From a virus, in IMG/VR virus record IMGVR_UViG_3300043408_000038, positions 1-47,264 of that record: a DNA stretch of 47,264 bases; one strand, 5' to 3'. Under the pieces are notes generated by a model. It was not told the DNA's origin and did not search any database. It was given only the letters and a program-made list of their open reading frames with translations. The first letter of the stretch is position 1. Each line of letters opens with the position of its first letter. Below are positions 1,068-23,649 of this stretch, piece after piece. The position numbers were made by a program, and so were the translations under genes.

Positions 1068-1487
1068 TTAGCCCTTGGTTACTTCGTAACCTCGGTTCCA
1101 ACGTCCAATATTTATACTGTTATGCCAACTGCACTCAAAGTAATCAGTCATTACATCAGAACTATCATAGTGCCCTTCTTTCATCAACTCATACACTTCC
1201 TCAAGGTATTCCAAGGCTTCAAAGCTAAAGCTGCGGCTAAGGTGATAGTGATTTACCTGCAAGTGCTTTGACTTGACTGCACCAGCAACACAAGCACCCG
1301 GTACACCATAAACAGATTGAACGTGCCATGAGTAGTTAGCAATAAAATCAATCTTACCAGAAGAAATAGTCAACGTAAGCGTACTGCTGTTGCTACCGCT
1401 GAAAGTAGACTTGATACCGTACTTCTTGTTGATCTCTTTCAACTTAATGGACTTAGCTTTTACTTCTTCTTTGGTGATGTATGCCAT
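1068..1487 (-). CDS. LPD29-like conserved phage protein (139 aa)
   Basis: Begins MAYITKEEVKAKSIKLKEI and contains a TLTISSGKIDFIANY strand segment. The C-terminus is YYD/N-type (HYDSSDVMTDYFECSW, SINIGRWNRGYEV). This arrangement resembles the large-polyvalent-protein-associated domain (LPD29-like) proteins common in coliphages; that assignment is from memory. An SD (CAGGAG) precedes the ATG. The function is unknown. Confidence 0.7.
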   Translation of the reverse strand: MAYITKEEVKAKSIKLKEINKKYGIKSTFSGSNSSTLTLTISSGKIDFIANYSWHVQSVYGVPGACVAGAVKSKHLQVNHYHLSRSFSFEALEYLEEVYELMKEGHYDSSDVMTDYFECSWHNSINIGRWNRGYEVTKG

Positions 1488-1521
1488 GTTAGAACTCCTG
1501 TGTGTTGGTGTCGATGCCTTA

Positions 1522-1527
1522 AGTATA
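1522..1527 (-). promoter_or_regulatory. -10 box TATACT for the 1068-1487 gene
   Basis: Minus strand CTTGAAATTTGAGATATACT, then TAAGGCATCGACACC and an ACACAGGAG SD. It is a member of the dispersed promoter/leader family. Confidence 0.5.
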
Positions 1528-1570
1528 TCTCAAATTTCAAGATATTTCATAAAACCTTATAAGATTTTTA

Positions 1571-1603
1571 CAAAATAAAAACCCCAGGATTTCTCCTAGG
1601 GTT
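1571..1603 (-). terminator. Rho-independent terminator
   Basis: On the minus strand AACCCTAGGA, a GAAA loop, then TCCTGGGGTT (10 bp with one G-U pair) followed by TTTTTATTTTG. It ends transcription of the upstream leftward genes (1646-1924 and beyond) just before the promoter of the 1068-1487 gene. Confidence 0.8.
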
Positions 1604-1645
1604 ACTACTTAAAAACCTCTCTATACCCTTGGTACTCTCAGTTTC

Positions 1646-1924
1646 TTACAGAAACTTCTCGGTATAGTCCATATTCATCCAAGCTGGTTTACCTTCAACA
1701 TCCACCCCAAGGCTATAGTCAATCCAGTAAGCGTAGTCACCTGCACTAAGTGCATTTTCTGCTACTTTATCCAAGGCTTCTATATCCTCGTAAGGGCTTA
1801 TAAAGAACCTCAGACCGTCTGATTCTCGCACAAGGTAGTACCCTCGGTAAGTACCCTTAAGCTGCTCTTCAAGGGCTTTCTCTTTGCTTCGTTTAGTAAA
1901 GTAACTTTTCCACTCACTTGACAT
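1646..1924 (-). CDS. hypothetical protein (92 aa)
   Basis: Perfect AAGGAG SD 6-7 nt before ATG. Charged N-terminal helix (WKSYFTKRSKEKALEEQLKG), then an aromatic-rich region (YRGYYLVRESDGLRFFI, GDYAYWIDYSLGVDV). No family recognised. It is the last gene before the terminator. Confidence 0.7.
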   Translation of the reverse strand: MSSEWKSYFTKRSKEKALEEQLKGTYRGYYLVRESDGLRFFISPYEDIEALDKVAENALSAGDYAYWIDYSLGVDVEGKPAWMNMDYTEKFL

Positions 1925-1963
1925 ATTAACTCCTTGGTTTAATTAACCTCAAACAGCACAGCC

Positions 1964-2407
1964 TTACAAGCTGCACTCAAACACAGCAACAACTCGTTTG
2001 TTAGCTTTGTTGTCGAATGTGTCAATGACCTCAGAGTTTACCACAGCCAAAGCATGATCTTTTGTAAGCAATACGTATTTCTTCTTTTTATCTGCTTTCT
2101 TTAGAAAAGTATTCAATGTCATACCTTGCTCTTGCTGTACGTATGAATACCAAGCCTTCAAATACCTCGCACCTCCTGCATCACCATGAATACTTACCAA
2201 GTTCAACCCAAAGGTTTTATATGCAGGGATAAGCATATCAAGTGTTGCACCTCGTTTGTCTTGTCTTCCGTGGTGCTTAAGCGCAGCGTGAGCCTTTGCG
2301 TAGCTGATACCTGTAGCATTAGCCAATGCTCGTACAGTGCAATCATCACTTTCATTCTCTTTGGTTGCACCTGTTGCACTGCTCTTGATGAATTGAATCT
2401 TACGCAT
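1964..2407 (-). CDS. papain/C39-like fold protein (147 aa)
   Basis: The N-terminal DDCTVRALANATGISYAKAH segment resembles the Cys-containing helix of cysteine-peptidase-like phage proteins. KYVLLTKDHALAVVNSEVID would supply a His, and DTFDNK an Asp. This C, H, D order suggests a papain-like fold. Activity is unproven, and the family is usually annotated only as conserved phage protein. SD AGAGG; own promoter. Confidence 0.65.
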   Translation of the reverse strand: MRKIQFIKSSATGATKENESDDCTVRALANATGISYAKAHAALKHHGRQDKRGATLDMLIPAYKTFGLNLVSIHGDAGGARYLKAWYSYVQQEQGMTLNTFLKKADKKKKYVLLTKDHALAVVNSEVIDTFDNKANKRVVAVFECSL

Positions 2408-8303: not shown

Positions 8304-9224
8304 TTATCCTTGTTTTACGTTGTTAGGAATCAGCTGGCGGTATTGCACCCAATCTCGGAAATTACCTGACCATAAATTACCGTAGCGATCTTCATGAGTC
8401 CACCCATCTTCCCACTCAAATCGGTGCCTTGTGTTTGCGCATTTGGCTACGTGCTCAAAACAACTTGCATGTACTGGCTCGGATTCTACCAATCTCTTGT
8501 AAATTTCTTCAGCTTTTTCAATACTTGTATCTAAACGCCTATACGAAACTTGCGCACATGAACTGCAACTGATTTTAATTGCTTGCTCGAGTGAATAGTA
8601 ACCACCATCTGGATTTTTGAACACTTGAAAATACTTTGTAATACCGTTAACAAATTCTGAAGTCAAAATCTCTGATTCAATATAAGGCAAATGCCACATA
8701 TCTTGGTGCAGCAATTCGGGTTTTGAACACTCATAAGCACCCTTCATTACCCTTGCCAGTTTTTGAATCTCAGGTTGTGCATCTGCATGGTCACGTAGCC
8801 AAAAGAAGTTGTTGAATTCTGTACCTGTCAAAACAACTTTCATTGTCTGAAATGGTTCCAAGATTCGGTTGATAACTTGCTTATGCAATTCGCATTTGGT
8901 CAAATCAAAAGCAAAATCTGCTGCTGCCTCTGCTGCTTTAGCCCATGTGTGTTTAGCTATGCTTTTAGGAACCCCTGTAAGTTCTTCTTTGGCTTGCATA
9001 CCAGCTTGATTACGACCCCAATGAATAGGTTCTGCTGCATTTGTACGAACCTGCTCAATTACCTTTGAAACAGGAATAGCTCGACTACTTGCTGAATTGC
9101 GACTGAACATGCGATGCGTCATCACTTCAGCATGAATAAACCGAGGATACTCAAGTTCAAATGTTGTAATACGGACACCATTAGCGTTAATGCTATCTGC
9201 AATAATATCTGCTGTGATTGTCAT
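8304..9224 (-). CDS. thyX: flavin-dependent thymidylate synthase
   Basis: 306 aa. It methylates dUMP to dTMP using methylene-tetrahydrofolate, FAD and NADPH. It has the ThyX signature region EVMTHRMFSRNSASSRAIPV (family consensus RHR-x7-S, here with THR) near residue 35. A long insertion typical of phage enzymes follows (HWGRNQAGMQAKEEL; GTEFNNFFWLRDH). The substrate/FAD loop is SSCAQVSYRRLD. The C-terminus is VHASCFEHVAKC and GNFRDWVQYRQ. AAAGGAATC SD. It works with the NrdAB and deaminase genes to supply dTTP. Confidence 0.92.
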   Translation of the reverse strand: MTITADIIADSINANGVRITTFELEYPRFIHAEVMTHRMFSRNSASSRAIPVSKVIEQVRTNAAEPIHWGRNQAGMQAKEELTGVPKSIAKHTWAKAAEAAADFAFDLTKCELHKQVINRILEPFQTMKVVLTGTEFNNFFWLRDHADAQPEIQKLARVMKGAYECSKPELLHQDMWHLPYIESEILTSEFVNGITKYFQVFKNPDGGYYSLEQAIKISCSSCAQVSYRRLDTSIEKAEEIYKRLVESEPVHASCFEHVAKCANTRHRFEWEDGWTHEDRYGNLWSGNFRDWVQYRQLIPNNVKQG

Positions 9225-13159: not shown

Positions 13160-13626
13160 TTTGTTCCTCTGTTTTTCTTGCGTAGTTTGGCAATCATTTC
13201 CCGGATTTGTTGAAGTTGATAGTCAGACAGATAACCGTCCCAACAATCTTCGATTTCATCGTTTGTCATCTCTACCCACTCGCGCTGTGGATGGGGTGCG
13301 GTGTACAGCTTAGTGTCAGCGGGTAAATCGTTCCAGCCAACGTGCAGCGTAATTCCCTGCTCGGTTTTGGTTGCCACAGGCTCCTGCTTGGGCTGGGGTT
13401 TCTTCATCGCAGCAATCCGCGCAAACACTCTCTCGTCCTGCTCGTAACCTATATCCTTCACCGGCTCTGGCTGCACTGCAAGCGCCTGCAAAGCGCCCTC
13501 GCCAGAGGCGATTGCTTTCTCAATGGCGGCGCGGAGGGCTTGGCGGCAGCGTTCGTAGGTTTCTGTGGTTGACGGGATTAGCGCATACGTATCAGCCAGC
13601 GCCATGATGTTGTCGATATGGTTCAT
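13156..13626 (-). CDS. GC-rich accessory protein of proteobacterial phages (156 aa)
   Basis: Start MNHIDNIMALADTYALIPST, chosen by ATGA overlap with the preceding stop. CRQALRAAIEKAIASGEG, then PVATKTEQGITLHVGWND, LPADTKLYTAPHPQREWVEM, a string of residues I associate with accessory proteins of Betaproteobacteria phages. The GC content is clearly above the neighbours. Function unknown. Confidence 0.75.
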   Translation of the reverse strand: MNHIDNIMALADTYALIPSTTETYERCRQALRAAIEKAIASGEGALQALAVQPEPVKDIGYEQDERVFARIAAMKKPQPKQEPVATKTEQGITLHVGWNDLPADTKLYTAPHPQREWVEMTNDEIEDCWDGYLSDYQLQQIREMIAKLRKKNRGTK

Positions 13627-13874
13627 TTCACTTCTCCTGCCCGTGCGAGGGCGGCTCGGGCTTGATCGAAGGTGGGCTTGTTCCACTCGTCTTCGTCCAT
13701 GCCCATGTGCGTCAGCATGGCGCCGAGCGCCTCCCGCAGCGCCTCGTTTTCAGCATGAAGCCTGCGGAGTTCGTCAGACACTTCTTTCATGCCCTCTCCC
13801 GTTTGTTGCAGTGCTACTGCCACCTCATCGACAACATCGGCCAACGCAATAGCCAGTGGTTGTTCAGTATTCAT
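13623..13874 (-). CDS. GC-rich coiled-coil protein (83 aa)
   Basis: MNTEQPLAIALADVVDEVAV, then a heptad-like helix (EVSDELRRLHAENEALREAL) and an acidic segment (GMDEDEWNKPTFDQARAALA). It is the first gene of the leftward arm, with an AAAGGA SD and an extended -10 promoter. Same compositional signature as its neighbour, so probably acquired together. Confidence 0.7.
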   Translation of the reverse strand: MNTEQPLAIALADVVDEVAVALQQTGEGMKEVSDELRRLHAENEALREALGAMLTHMGMDEDEWNKPTFDQARAALARAGEVK

Positions 13875-13910
13875 AACTAAATTCCTTTCGTTTGTTATTT
13901 CGATGACTGA

Positions 13911-13916
13911 AGTGTA
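13911..13916 (-). promoter_or_regulatory. extended -10 promoter of the leftward arm (TGC TACACT)
   Basis: Minus strand TATGCTACACTTCAGTCATC, then a leader ending AAACGAAAGGAATTTAGTT before ATG. The CACTTCAGTCATCGAAA block is almost identical to that of the rightward promoter at 15863-15868. Confidence 0.6.
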
Positions 13917-14004
13917 GCATAGTTTTCTTGAAATTTCCAGAGACTTCTTAAAAATTTCTAAGATTTCTTCAGGTTTTTACTTCCAGCTATGCGCAACCTC
14001 TATC

Positions 14005-14110
14005 TGTGCGTAAAGTTGTTGAAATTCTGTTAGCAAGCTGTGCATAACCCTGTGGATAGTGCTTTTTGTACTAAATAAAGATTTTCTAAAGAAAATAAAA
14101 AAAAGAAAAA
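14005..14110. other. candidate replication origin: DnaA-like boxes plus AT-rich tract
   Basis: TGTGCGTAA (14005-14013), TGTGCATAA (14039-14047, the complement of TTATGCACA, matching TTATNCACA) and TGTGGATAG (14051-14059, one mismatch). The last two are spaced 12 bp apart on the same face. An A/T-rich tract ending in runs of A follows. The position between the divergent arms is typical for an origin. No experimental support; T7-type replisomes do not need DnaA. Confidence 0.4.
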
Positions 14111-14416
14111 CTACCTTGGTTAACCTGCTTAGTTTTTAAGCAATACTTCACAAACCTTCAAAAGCTCTTTAAACGCCCTACAAGGCTTTATTTGTATTTA
14201 GGCTACCTCGGTATCAACCAAGGCTAGAAAACCTGCTGTAGAGCTTTCTGATGCGTTTTAGAAGTATTCTTGAAGCATGTCAATACCAACAACCTTTGAC
14301 TTCGTAGAAAAGTTACTTCAGGCTTATGTTTTTCTGTTTGGCATTAGGCGTAGGCTCAACCTTAGTAGCTAAAGAAGTACTCTTGTACTAGCTAAAGATT
14401 TATTTTCTTGAATCTC

Positions 14417-14445
14417 TTGCATAAGGTTTGTATCTGTGCTACACT
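14417..14445 (+). promoter_or_regulatory. promoter TTGCAT-17-TACACT with extended TGC
   Basis: -35 TTGCAT (14417-14422), 17-nt spacer ending TGC, -10 TACACT (14440-14445). No ORF with an SD follows for over 370 nt, so it probably drives an untranslated RNA or a long leader for the rightward arm. Confidence 0.55.
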
Positions 14446-14451
14446 CAAGGC

Positions 14452-14720
14452 TTCGGACAGGTTGTTGTGACAGAACAGCTTTGCTTGTGCCAATTAGCAT
14501 TACGACCGTTAAGTGCGCCTTTGGGTGTTCTATCTTGCGGAAGGGGTGATTCGTTTGTCTAGCTTGGGCTACCCTGCGTTTTACTAAAGATAGATAGGCC
14601 GAGAAACTTCAGGGAGAAGTTCAGGTTAACTTACTAGCTTAAAGCTGTACAAAGTTAAGGCTTTGTATGGCTAAGGGCTAGTGTTGCCTAAAATTGCTTA
14701 GGGAGAATATATCTATAGGT
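14452..14720 (+). ncRNA. candidate structured RNA beside the origin
   Basis: It begins just after the promoter at 14440. Visible pairings include AACTTC-AGGGA-GAAGTT near 14607, and TTAACTT with AAGTTAA enclosing AGCT-TAA-AGCT near 14630-14660. There is also a CCTAA/TTAGG pair near 14690. The sequence is GC-richer than its AT-rich surroundings and has no usable ORF. Extent and family unknown. It may simply be a long 5' leader. Confidence 0.35.
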
Positions 14721-14792
14721 ATTAACTAAAGGTTATAACCTAAGTATAGTTAAAATTAATGAAGTAAATGAGTAAAGACTCTCAAACTTTGC

Positions 14793-14798
14793 TACACT
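14793..14798 (+). promoter_or_regulatory. extended -10 promoter of the rightward early genes (TGC TACACT)
   Basis: TTTGCTACACTACAAG, 28 nt before the ATG of the 14826 gene, followed by AAAAGGAG. No clear -35. Confidence 0.55.
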
Positions 14799-14825
14799 AC
14801 AAGAACTTTAACAAAAGGAGTTGAT

Positions 14826-15035
14826 ATGAACCAAGTCAATACCAGCAAGCTATCTGCTCAGGCTTATCACAAGAAGAAATCCCAAGAGCATACATGGGTA
14901 TGTACTTATGTTGATAGCTTGAGTAATAAACAGGTTAAGTTTACTTGCAGCAATGCTATGAAGAAAAGCCATGAGATGCTGATGCAAGGTAATCAGCATG
15001 TTAAGGATGTTTGTTTTGTTAGGGGAGTTATGTGA
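14826..15035 (+). CDS. small basic protein, first gene of the rightward arm (69 aa)
   Basis: MNQVNTSKLSAQAYHKKKSQ, then TWVCTYVDSLSNKQVKFTCS. AAAAGGAG SD. Basic and soluble, no family recognised. It is directly downstream of a promoter, so probably among the first proteins made. Confidence 0.65.
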   Translation: MNQVNTSKLSAQAYHKKKSQEHTWVCTYVDSLSNKQVKFTCSNAMKKSHEMLMQGNQHVKDVCFVRGVM

Positions 15036-19508: not shown

Positions 19509-19531
19509 AGCCAGCCTTGTGCTGGCTTTTT
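19509..19531 (+). terminator. Rho-independent terminator after the helicase gene
   Basis: AGCCAGC-CTTGT-GCTGGCT followed by TTTT. Perfect 7-bp stem starting 5 nt after the helicase stop. Confidence 0.85.
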
Positions 19532-19535
19532 AGCC

Positions 19536-19564
19536 TTGACAATAGGATACTACCATGCTACAAT
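19536..19564 (+). promoter_or_regulatory. full sigma-70 promoter TTGACA-17-TACAAT for the GIY-YIG gene
   Basis: Consensus -35 TTGACA (19536-19541), exactly 17 nt, extended TGC and -10 TACAAT (19559-19564). The best-matching promoter in the window, just before the mobile gene. Confidence 0.8.
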
Positions 19565-19588
19565 TTATTATTTAGTAAAGGGTATGCA

Positions 19589-20350
19589 ATGACAATTGGA
19601 ATATACAGAATCAGAAACACCATTAACAATAAATCATATATTGGTAAATCAAGAAATATAGAAAGACGTTTTGAAGATCACTTAAGAACAATGCGAAAAG
19701 GTCAGATTCGCAGGGGTGTAAATAGGTACTTAATACATGCTTCAAATAAATACGGCATTGAATCGTTTGACTTTGAAATACTCCAAGAGTTTCAGGAAGT
19801 TGACGAGGCAACCTTGGCTGACGCAGAGGTGTACTGGATGGATACCCTAAAAACCCTAGACAGAGGTTTTGGATACAATCTCATGAGAGATAGTTCTTCG
19901 TCAACTGAAATGACCAAGGAAGCTAGGCAAGCAATGTCTGCTGCCCAATCAGGAAAGAAAAACGGTAACTATGGGCATAAGTGGACTGAAGAACAAAAAG
20001 CAAGAATGTCTGAAATTAAGAAGCAACAGTTTACTGACGGTACTTATGACTTTATGAATACACCGGAGCACAGGGCATACTTATCAGCCTGCTCTAAGGA
20101 GATTTGGAAAAATACTGAAAAGAAGGCTGGAATGGCTCGAAAAGTTGCGGAGGTAACCAGCACACTGAGGTTTGAGCAGTACGATAAAAAGACTGGAGTT
20201 TTGGTTGGCACTTATGAAAGTATGTTAGAAATAACAGACAAGTACCCTGACTTTCATAAAATTGCTATTTACAGTGTTTGTAACGGTTGGAAAAAATCTT
20301 ACAGAGGCTTTATTTGGAAAAGTTTTGAGAAGTGTGCTATAATCCAGTAA
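19589..20350 (+). CDS. GIY-YIG homing endonuclease with NUMOD DNA-binding repeats
   Basis: 253 aa. MTIGIYRIRNTINNKSYIGK gives GIY (4-6) and YIG (17-19). Conserved Arg in RRFEDHLR; catalytic Glu in LADAEVYWMDTL; GYNLMRD closes the nuclease domain. A NUMOD3-like segment follows (GKKNGNYGHKWTEEQKARMS), then a C-terminal NUMOD1-like helix-turn-helix (YESMLEITDKYPD, AIYSVCNGWKKSYRGFIWKS). The start at 19589 is preceded by AAAGGG; the longer reading would begin in the promoter. A free-standing mobile gene with its own promoter, placed between helicase and polymerase. Confidence 0.92.
   Translation: MTIGIYRIRNTINNKSYIGKSRNIERRFEDHLRTMRKGQIRRGVNRYLIHASNKYGIESFDFEILQEFQEVDEATLADAEVYWMDTLKTLDRGFGYNLMRDSSSSTEMTKEARQAMSAAQSGKKNGNYGHKWTEEQKARMSEIKKQQFTDGTYDFMNTPEHRAYLSACSKEIWKNTEKKAGMARKVAEVTSTLRFEQYDKKTGVLVGTYESMLEITDKYPDFHKIAIYSVCNGWKKSYRGFIWKSFEKCAIIQ
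20338..20343 (+). promoter_or_regulatory. extended -10 promoter (TGC TATAAT) for the polymerase gene
   Basis: AGTGTGCTATAATCCAG lies across the last codons of the GIY-YIG gene, 25 nt before the polymerase ATG. It ensures polymerase expression despite the upstream terminator and mobile gene. Confidence 0.65.
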
Positions 20351-22858: not shown

Positions 22859-22956
22859 GCAAACATAGAGGCAGTGTAATACGCGGCAACTCAGTACTGA
22901 GATTGAGTGCCAATCAGGTGCAAAGCCTGTCCATTTGTATTCTAAGTGCATTTAGT

Positions 22957-23029
22957 CCGCGCATGGTGAAAATGGAGATCACACAAATCTTCTAAATTTG
23001 GAGTCCTTGTTCGATTCAAGGTGTGCGGA
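22957..23029 (+). tRNA. tRNA-Arg (anticodon UCU)
   Basis: Full cloverleaf by eye. Acceptor CCGCGCA pairs TGTGCGG (one G-U). D-stem GTGA/TCAC with loop AAATGGAGA. Anticodon stem CAAAT/ATTTG, loop CTTCTAA with anticodon TCT. Four-nt variable loop GAGT. T-stem CCTTG/CAAGG with loop TTCGATT. Discriminator A; the 3' CCA is not encoded. Three more pairs (AGT...ACT) continue the acceptor stem into the precursor. It would read AGA codons, which are rare in many proteobacteria. Confidence 0.88.
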
Positions 23030-23273
23030 CTAAGTACATTTTAATTCAGCTTAATGGGTTGCCCTAAGTGCGTAGCGCGAGGGAAGGTCTGGTAAACTAC
23101 ATGCCGTTGCACTCATAGTGCAGAGGGGCGGTAGACAGGCGGCAGCAACGCTGTAGTATCCTACGCAGCAGCTTGTTTACAGCGAGGCGTTTGTCTGAAG
23201 GTGCTTCTGTAATAGCACTCAAGAACTAACCTGTTGCATCGTGAGAGCAACGCCGGATTCTAGTAACCGGCAA

Positions 23274-23357
23274 CTATATTGAAATACTCTATAAAACATC
23301 GTCAAGGTTAGGGTTGCTCCAGTTCTAGATAAAAACCTCTAGAGTATTTCAATATGG
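23274..23357 (+). repeat. long hairpin A of the ncRNA block
   Basis: ATATTGAAATACTCTA (23276-23291) pairs perfectly with TAGAGTATTTCAATAT (23340-23355); two more pairs extend it outward. The 48-nt apical part differs from hairpin B. The 3' arm plus GGTAAAT is shared with hairpin B. Confidence 0.85.
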
Positions 23358-23424
23358 TAAATTTATCAAGATGTACTACCAGATTTATTTTAGTAGTACA
23401 GCTAAAAGTAAGTAAGATTTGTGT

Positions 23425-23430
23425 TATAAT
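23425..23430 (+). promoter_or_regulatory. extended -10 promoter (TGT TATAAT) inside the ncRNA block
   Basis: ATTTGTGTTATAATAAG. A start near 23437 coincides with the first base of the closing stem of the multibranch domain, suggesting a separate transcript. Confidence 0.65.
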
Positions 23431-23436
23431 AAGTTT

Positions 23437-23580
23437 GTCCCGCCATGCTTGTTACTCCAATCCCTAGGAGCCAGCAGCACACTTCGGTGAACCGCACTCA
23501 CAGCGGTTGGTTAAAATAGAGTAACGAGTTGCGCCGTTACCTACGGATTTCTAGCATGCGGGATGTCTCCCAAGTTCACC
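23437..23580 (+). ncRNA. compact multibranch RNA domain with alternative pairings
   Basis: The closing stem is GTCCCGC-(C)-ATGCT (23437-23449) with AGCATGCGGGAT (23553-23564). Inside are hairpins CTCC/GGAG (23455-23470), CAC-TTCG-GTG (23480-23489), AACCGC/GCGGTT (23490-23508) and GTAACG/CGTTAC (23521-23540). GTTACTC (23451-23457) can instead pair with GAGTAAC (23519-23525), competing with two of these hairpins. GGTGAAC (23486-23492) can pair with GTTCACC (23574-23580) as a pseudoknot. Consistent with a folded regulatory or scaffold RNA. Confidence 0.55.
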
Positions 23581-23649
23581 GGAACAACATAAATTTATTT
23601 TATGCCGAGATTCAAAGACTATGGAACCCAGCTTTAGGGAGTTGGGTTA

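Follow-up and report, generated by a model that had tools for sequence, protein, structure and literature searches.

The window, i.e. the whole stretch of DNA analysed, is a virus record of 47,264 bp (IMGVR_UViG_3300043408_000038). The phage is uncultured, and a divergent gap of 951 bp separates its two early gene blocks, the leftward genes reaching 13874 and the rightward ones beginning at 14826. To the right of the gap lies a long run of genes, a 19-kb operon with genes for a primase/helicase, a DNA polymerase, an exonuclease and ribonucleotide reductase. A homing endonuclease gene (19517-20350), with a GIY-YIG-type match among its matches, is located between the helicase and DNA polymerase genes. 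Judging by the relatives of the ribonucleotide reductase, the host may belong to the Comamonadaceae. The gap and its right edge hold the following features:

13911-13919, minus strand: TGCTACACT of the leftward promoter, from the motif count
14039-14112: likely origin element, separate from the RNA, with DnaA-box-like TTATGCACA (14039-14047) and CTATCCACA (14051-14059), boxes on the minus strand, then an AT-rich (A-rich) tract to 14112
14417-14445, plus strand: extended -10 promoter of the RNA, with TTGCAT (14417-14422), a 17-nt spacer, TGC (14437-14439) and TACACT (14440-14445)
14450-14685, plus strand: structured noncoding RNA, from covariation and strand fold energies, its ends placed by the conserved structure (14446-14685 in the match to model R2)
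14686-14785, no strand assigned: AT-rich stretch from the RNA to the second promoter, without an intrinsic terminator
14790-14798, plus strand: TGCTACACT of the second promoter, immediately ahead of the first rightward gene
14826-15035, plus strand: gene for a 69-aa protein without known family, the first in the rightward operon

The initial annotation had described a TTGCAT-17-TGC-TACACT promoter with a transcript starting near 14452; the promoter is present, and the predicted start (14450-14453) agrees. It is weak when compared to the plain sigma-70 consensus (8/12) and is absent from the list given by the promoter scanner. The motif TGCTACACT occurs three times in the 47-kb window, each time inside the 951-bp gap (14437, plus; 14790, plus; 13919, minus). 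The chance expectation is 0.72 copies, and three were reached in 4 of 100 shuffles. Between the leftward promoter and gene 13874 there are only about 30-45 nt, and the second promoter of the rightward operon is 350 nt beyond that of the RNA.

One relative, L029, was reached via the protein of gene 14826, and its DNA is 89 % identical to the window over 13837-15035. The promoter and the 5' part of the RNA (14392-14512) have no changes in L029, and neither has 14017-14096 in the origin-like tract; the most changed part is 14600-14700. In a second relative, L024, the counterpart of the RNA promoter is TTGACA-16-TACAAT with TG, an 11/12 consensus match, and the second promoter has equivalents in both L029 and L024 (9076-9105). 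A homologue of gene 14826 was found neither in L024 nor in L003 (same contig as L036), the phage whose DNA polymerase, at 84 % identity, is closest to that of the window.

The RNA stretch contains no evident ORF, the longest frame being 44 aa and opening at a TTG upstream of the transcript start. As had been noted earlier, the GC content rises, to 0.44 compared to 0.32-0.40 upstream and 0.34 downstream, but calling the rise sharp was an overstatement; coding DNA at 13300-13800 has a GC content of 0.57-0.60, i.e. above that of the RNA stretch. An intrinsic terminator, which marks the 3' end of a Rho-independent sRNA gene, was not found between the RNA and gene 14826 in the window, and the outcome was the same for L024.

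The minimum free energy of 14450-14685 is -77.6 kcal/mol compared to -67.5 ± 4.7 for shuffled sequences (z -2.1), and 14447-14720 gives a z of -2.2. The fold energy alone is moderately unusual, and the decisive evidence is the covariation. When the window and L029 were aligned with MAFFT, an alignment not fitted to structure, and analysed with RNAalifold, 48 pairs were the same, 11 were changed on both sides, 6 were changed on one side and none was broken. A covariance model built from these two sequences alone (R1) was applied to 458 kb of DNA, for the most part helicase-related loci, and it matched L024 at 8775-8971 with 26 bits and E=7.2e-4; beyond the window, L029 and L024 there were no matches below E=1. 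The match lies exactly between the divergent operons of L024, after its TTGACA-16-TACAAT promoter, at the homologous intergenic site, where no DNA similarity to the window is detectable.

In a structure-guided alignment of the three sequences, with gaps treated as N and most of the L024 insertion in P1 excluded, 99.3 % of the cells were paired and 19 pairs had double changes. None of 500 shuffles scored as high, and slid partners were paired in 32-48 % of the cells. As this alignment was fitted to the structure, the argument is carried by the unfitted two-sequence count and by the R1 match. The hairpins pointed out in the initial annotation are conserved in relatives, with compensatory changes across three phages. 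Pairs kept through two-sided changes in diverged relatives are a mark of structured noncoding RNAs, and on this comparison 14450-14685 is a real structured RNA, putatively transcribed as judged by the promoter and the G.U asymmetry; in L029 and L024 it keeps its folded shape, not its letters. The 147 paired cells include 20 G.U and no C.A, so the plus strand is the RNA strand; the fold energy is also lower for the plus strand (-77.6 kcal/mol) than for the minus strand (-54.7 kcal/mol).

The comparison supports an architecture in which a 5' domain closed by P0 would contain P1, P2, P3 and the ATTACGACCG junction, with P4 as a separate 3' rod. The predicted elements are the following:

14452-14456 with 14599-14603, plus strand: P0, the closing helix, core UCGG/CCGA kept in L024
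14457-14488, plus strand: P1/P1b hairpin, 14457-14461 with 14484-14488 and 14463-14466 with 14474-14477, from covariation
14489-14514, plus strand: unpaired junction with its core at 14494-14508, the best conserved sequence by identity (GCC..TTAGC.ATTACGACCG)
14515-14528, plus strand: P2 hairpin
14529-14536 with 14587-14594, plus strand: P3 helix, enclosing the P3b/P3c core GCGGAAGGG...CCCTGC
14633-14682, plus strand: P4 rod, with outer stem 14633-14638/14677-14682 and inner stem 14644-14654/14661-14671

By their base changes P2, P3 and P4 are well supported. The arms of P2 are GCGCC/GGTGT in the window, ACACC/GGTGT in L029 and GCGGG/CCTGT in L024, giving two double and two one-sided changes. 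In P3, five of the eight pairs have double changes and none is broken, and between the window and L029 the arms read UCUAUCUU/AAGAUAGA in one sequence and CUUGUCUU/AAGACAAG in the other. P4 has nine double-change pairs, an asymmetric internal loop (TTAAA/TAAGG) and a 6-nt end loop; in L029 its outer stem is shorter by one pair, with both sides lost. The case for P0 and P1 comes mainly from pairs that are invariant or changed on one side. P0 shows little covariation and also appears in the unconstrained fold of L024. P1b has two double changes and P1 two one-sided ones, and the P1 region is larger by about 70 nt in L024. Within the three sequences a rival pairing of P1 is possible, in which GCUUG would pair with UAGGC and, in L024, CUUAGCU with AGCUAAG. 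In the junction, ATTACGACCG (14499-14508) is invariant in all three phages, and the whole junction is identical in the window and L029.

Searches for further members were made with models and patterns. Among 89 loci, model R2 gave matches in L029, L024 and the window itself, with no fourth member, and it matched only L029 and L024 among 50 whole records including four isolates (P26059A, DC31, KLEP7 and M1), in which the RNA is absent. BLASTN against phage isolates with the region from the window, L024 or L003 gave no matches. The pattern GCGGAAGG...GGCTACCCTGCG was found in four other contigs of IMG/VR, all coincidences in coding DNA, and the pattern ATTACGACCG...AAGGG...ACCCTG, besides L029 and L024, in three contigs, again all coding coincidences. 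Six bacterial genome contigs matched by pattern, none with more than a fragmentary match to the model. The cmscan-type comparison with Rfam that had been proposed earlier gave no known family: none of the Rfam 15 covariance models reached threshold in the window, L024 or L003 regions, and for the RNA nothing was above chance even at E up to 5. The fast-mode scan missed a plain tRNA, and the sensitive-mode scan is therefore the trusted one. The RNA is not a tRNA or tmRNA, since ARAGORN finds solely a tRNA-Arg at 22957-23030 in the window. Exact complementarity between the RNA and the rest of the phage was at most 12 nt (two cases).

At the same genomic position L003 (5060-5595) has an extended -10 promoter like that of the window (TGTGCTAGACT), and the ~380 nt after it have a very stable fold (z -4.6). 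By eye this stretch looks homologous, but R2 gave no match even with the filters off and its own best fold pairs the same bases differently; it was therefore dropped as a member and is treated as a positional analogue only. Because L003 has another fold and the four isolates lack the RNA, the RNA is non-essential in this group. In the isolate Curvibacter phage P26059A a divergent gap (L096 6546-6890) carries AACTTCAGTTGT repeats and has a fold z of -2.2, with no match to the window RNA.

Other structured stretches were observed during the work. The tRNA-Arg of the window is embedded in a noncoding and highly structured stretch of about 500 nt (22866-23400), with a fold z of -5.0 at 23030-23380 and 93 % identity of the region in L118. 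In the consensus fold, which has no double changes, a large closed structure contains the tRNA as a branch, and the tRNA is the sole Rfam match. The arrangement resembles GOLLD, which has an internal tRNA. At 23420-23600 the promoter-like TGTGTTATAAT precedes a structured stretch of ~130 nt (z -2.8), largely conserved in L118 and possibly a further noncoding RNA. In L103 a hairpin-rich stretch (1930-2330, minus strand) lies directly before a 204-aa ORF (1316-1930, minus strand) that looked HNH-like by eye; the stretch has no Rfam match and may be an intron-like or endonuclease-associated RNA.

The reading that we prefer, giving it about an even chance, is that the RNA represents a new early phage noncoding RNA family of ~235-330 nt that acts mainly in trans. 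Early on, the host RNA polymerase would produce it by reading rightward from the extended -10 promoter of the RNA, beside an origin-like element within the divergent control region. As an intrinsic terminator is not visible, the 3' end would be produced by processing or Rho. The P0-closed multibranch domain would then present the invariant ATTACGACCG junction to a protein or RNA partner, and this action would fall in the early takeover. Action in trans is favoured because the RNA, its promoter and the second promoter recur in L024 though the first downstream genes there are not homologous; that promoter and RNA are kept despite these unrelated genes, with a second promoter at the operon, argues that the RNA itself is functional.

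As no terminator separates the RNA from the operon in the window or in L024, transcripts should read through into gene 14826 and the long rightward gene run. The RNA could thus act in cis as the 5' leader of this operon, e.g. as an antitermination RNA like HK022 put, which makes the polymerase that transcribed it resist termination, or as a regulated attenuator, although we regard this as rather doubtful. In all three phages a second promoter belongs to the operon, whose first genes are not common to the members, and the long leftward operon is preceded by nothing similar. HK022 put consists of two stem-loops in about 70 nt and is present on both early transcripts. The position fits, since in both cases an early phage transcript begins, or in the window would begin, with a structured RNA near the promoter. 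However, put is much shorter, and instead of two short stem-loops on both early transcripts the window has a multibranched RNA of about 235 nt on one side only, before an operon with a bypass promoter.

A role in replication appears improbable. The origin primer or R-loop at 14005-14110 proposed in the initial annotation is not supported, as that tract lies 340 nt upstream of the predicted start, outside the transcript, which heads away from it. Priming by this RNA would have to start in the AT-rich stretch 14686-14785 instead. A promoter, a structured RNA, an AT-rich stretch and a nearby DnaA-box-like element (two sites 12 nt apart) do co-occur here, and in L029 and L024 the RNA, and in L003 the structured stretch, are likewise followed by AT-rich DNA. 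ColE1 RNA II and the T7 and T4 (oriF) origin transcripts also have a promoter and a structured RNA, with AT-rich DNA close to an origin-like region, and the window RNA would prime by analogy with them. Its transcript, however, leaves the DnaA-like/AT element upstream, the fold of the whole RNA is conserved whereas a plain primer needs no compensatory change throughout, and related phages carry a different structured stretch or none. What stands of the earlier interpretation is the structured RNA, as an sRNA or an operon leader, with hairpins covarying in three phages.

The position in the control region beside an origin-like site would also suit a DNA-level element, such as a cruciform or a single-strand origin. 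This is very improbable, as the G.U cells would become C.A mismatches in the opposite strand, which folds far more weakly, and the promoter points into the stretch. Chance folding of spacer DNA, with which the window fold energies of z about -2 would agree, is hardly credible in view of the compensatory changes and the independent detection of L024.

GOLLD and ROOL are linked to phages and are known from comparative genomics. Like GOLLD, ROOL and OLE, the window RNA is a folded noncoding RNA, but these are much larger and it matches none of them in Rfam; the three have been described as ornate (PMC12286853). The PAK_P3 sRNAs and the T4 band C/D RNAs, compared here by description, are likewise noncoding RNAs of virulent phages, and phage sRNAs are a reviewed kind (PMC12197685). 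PAK_P3 sRNA1 and sRNA2 are late and about 100 nt (PMC4933390), and on this description they were set aside as possible relatives of the window RNA.

The fold and sequence of the RNA lie outside catalogued families, and its three members make it a good candidate for a family that is still thinly populated. To our knowledge virulent phages have yielded few structured RNAs, and still fewer whose fold is backed by covariation. Tentatively, the RNA may define an undescribed early phage family that acts in trans, via ATTACGACCG, on a host target such as polymerase, ribosome, RNase or defence. As the same control slot would hold unrelated folded RNAs in related phages, it may also be a site of rapid RNA replacement, and another strongly folding stretch at this spot in a close relative suggests a functional slot and not a single RNA. 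With its helices mapped, its unpaired motif invariant and its promoter of an early type, the 235-nt RNA can be tested directly for roles in host takeover, antitermination and priming.
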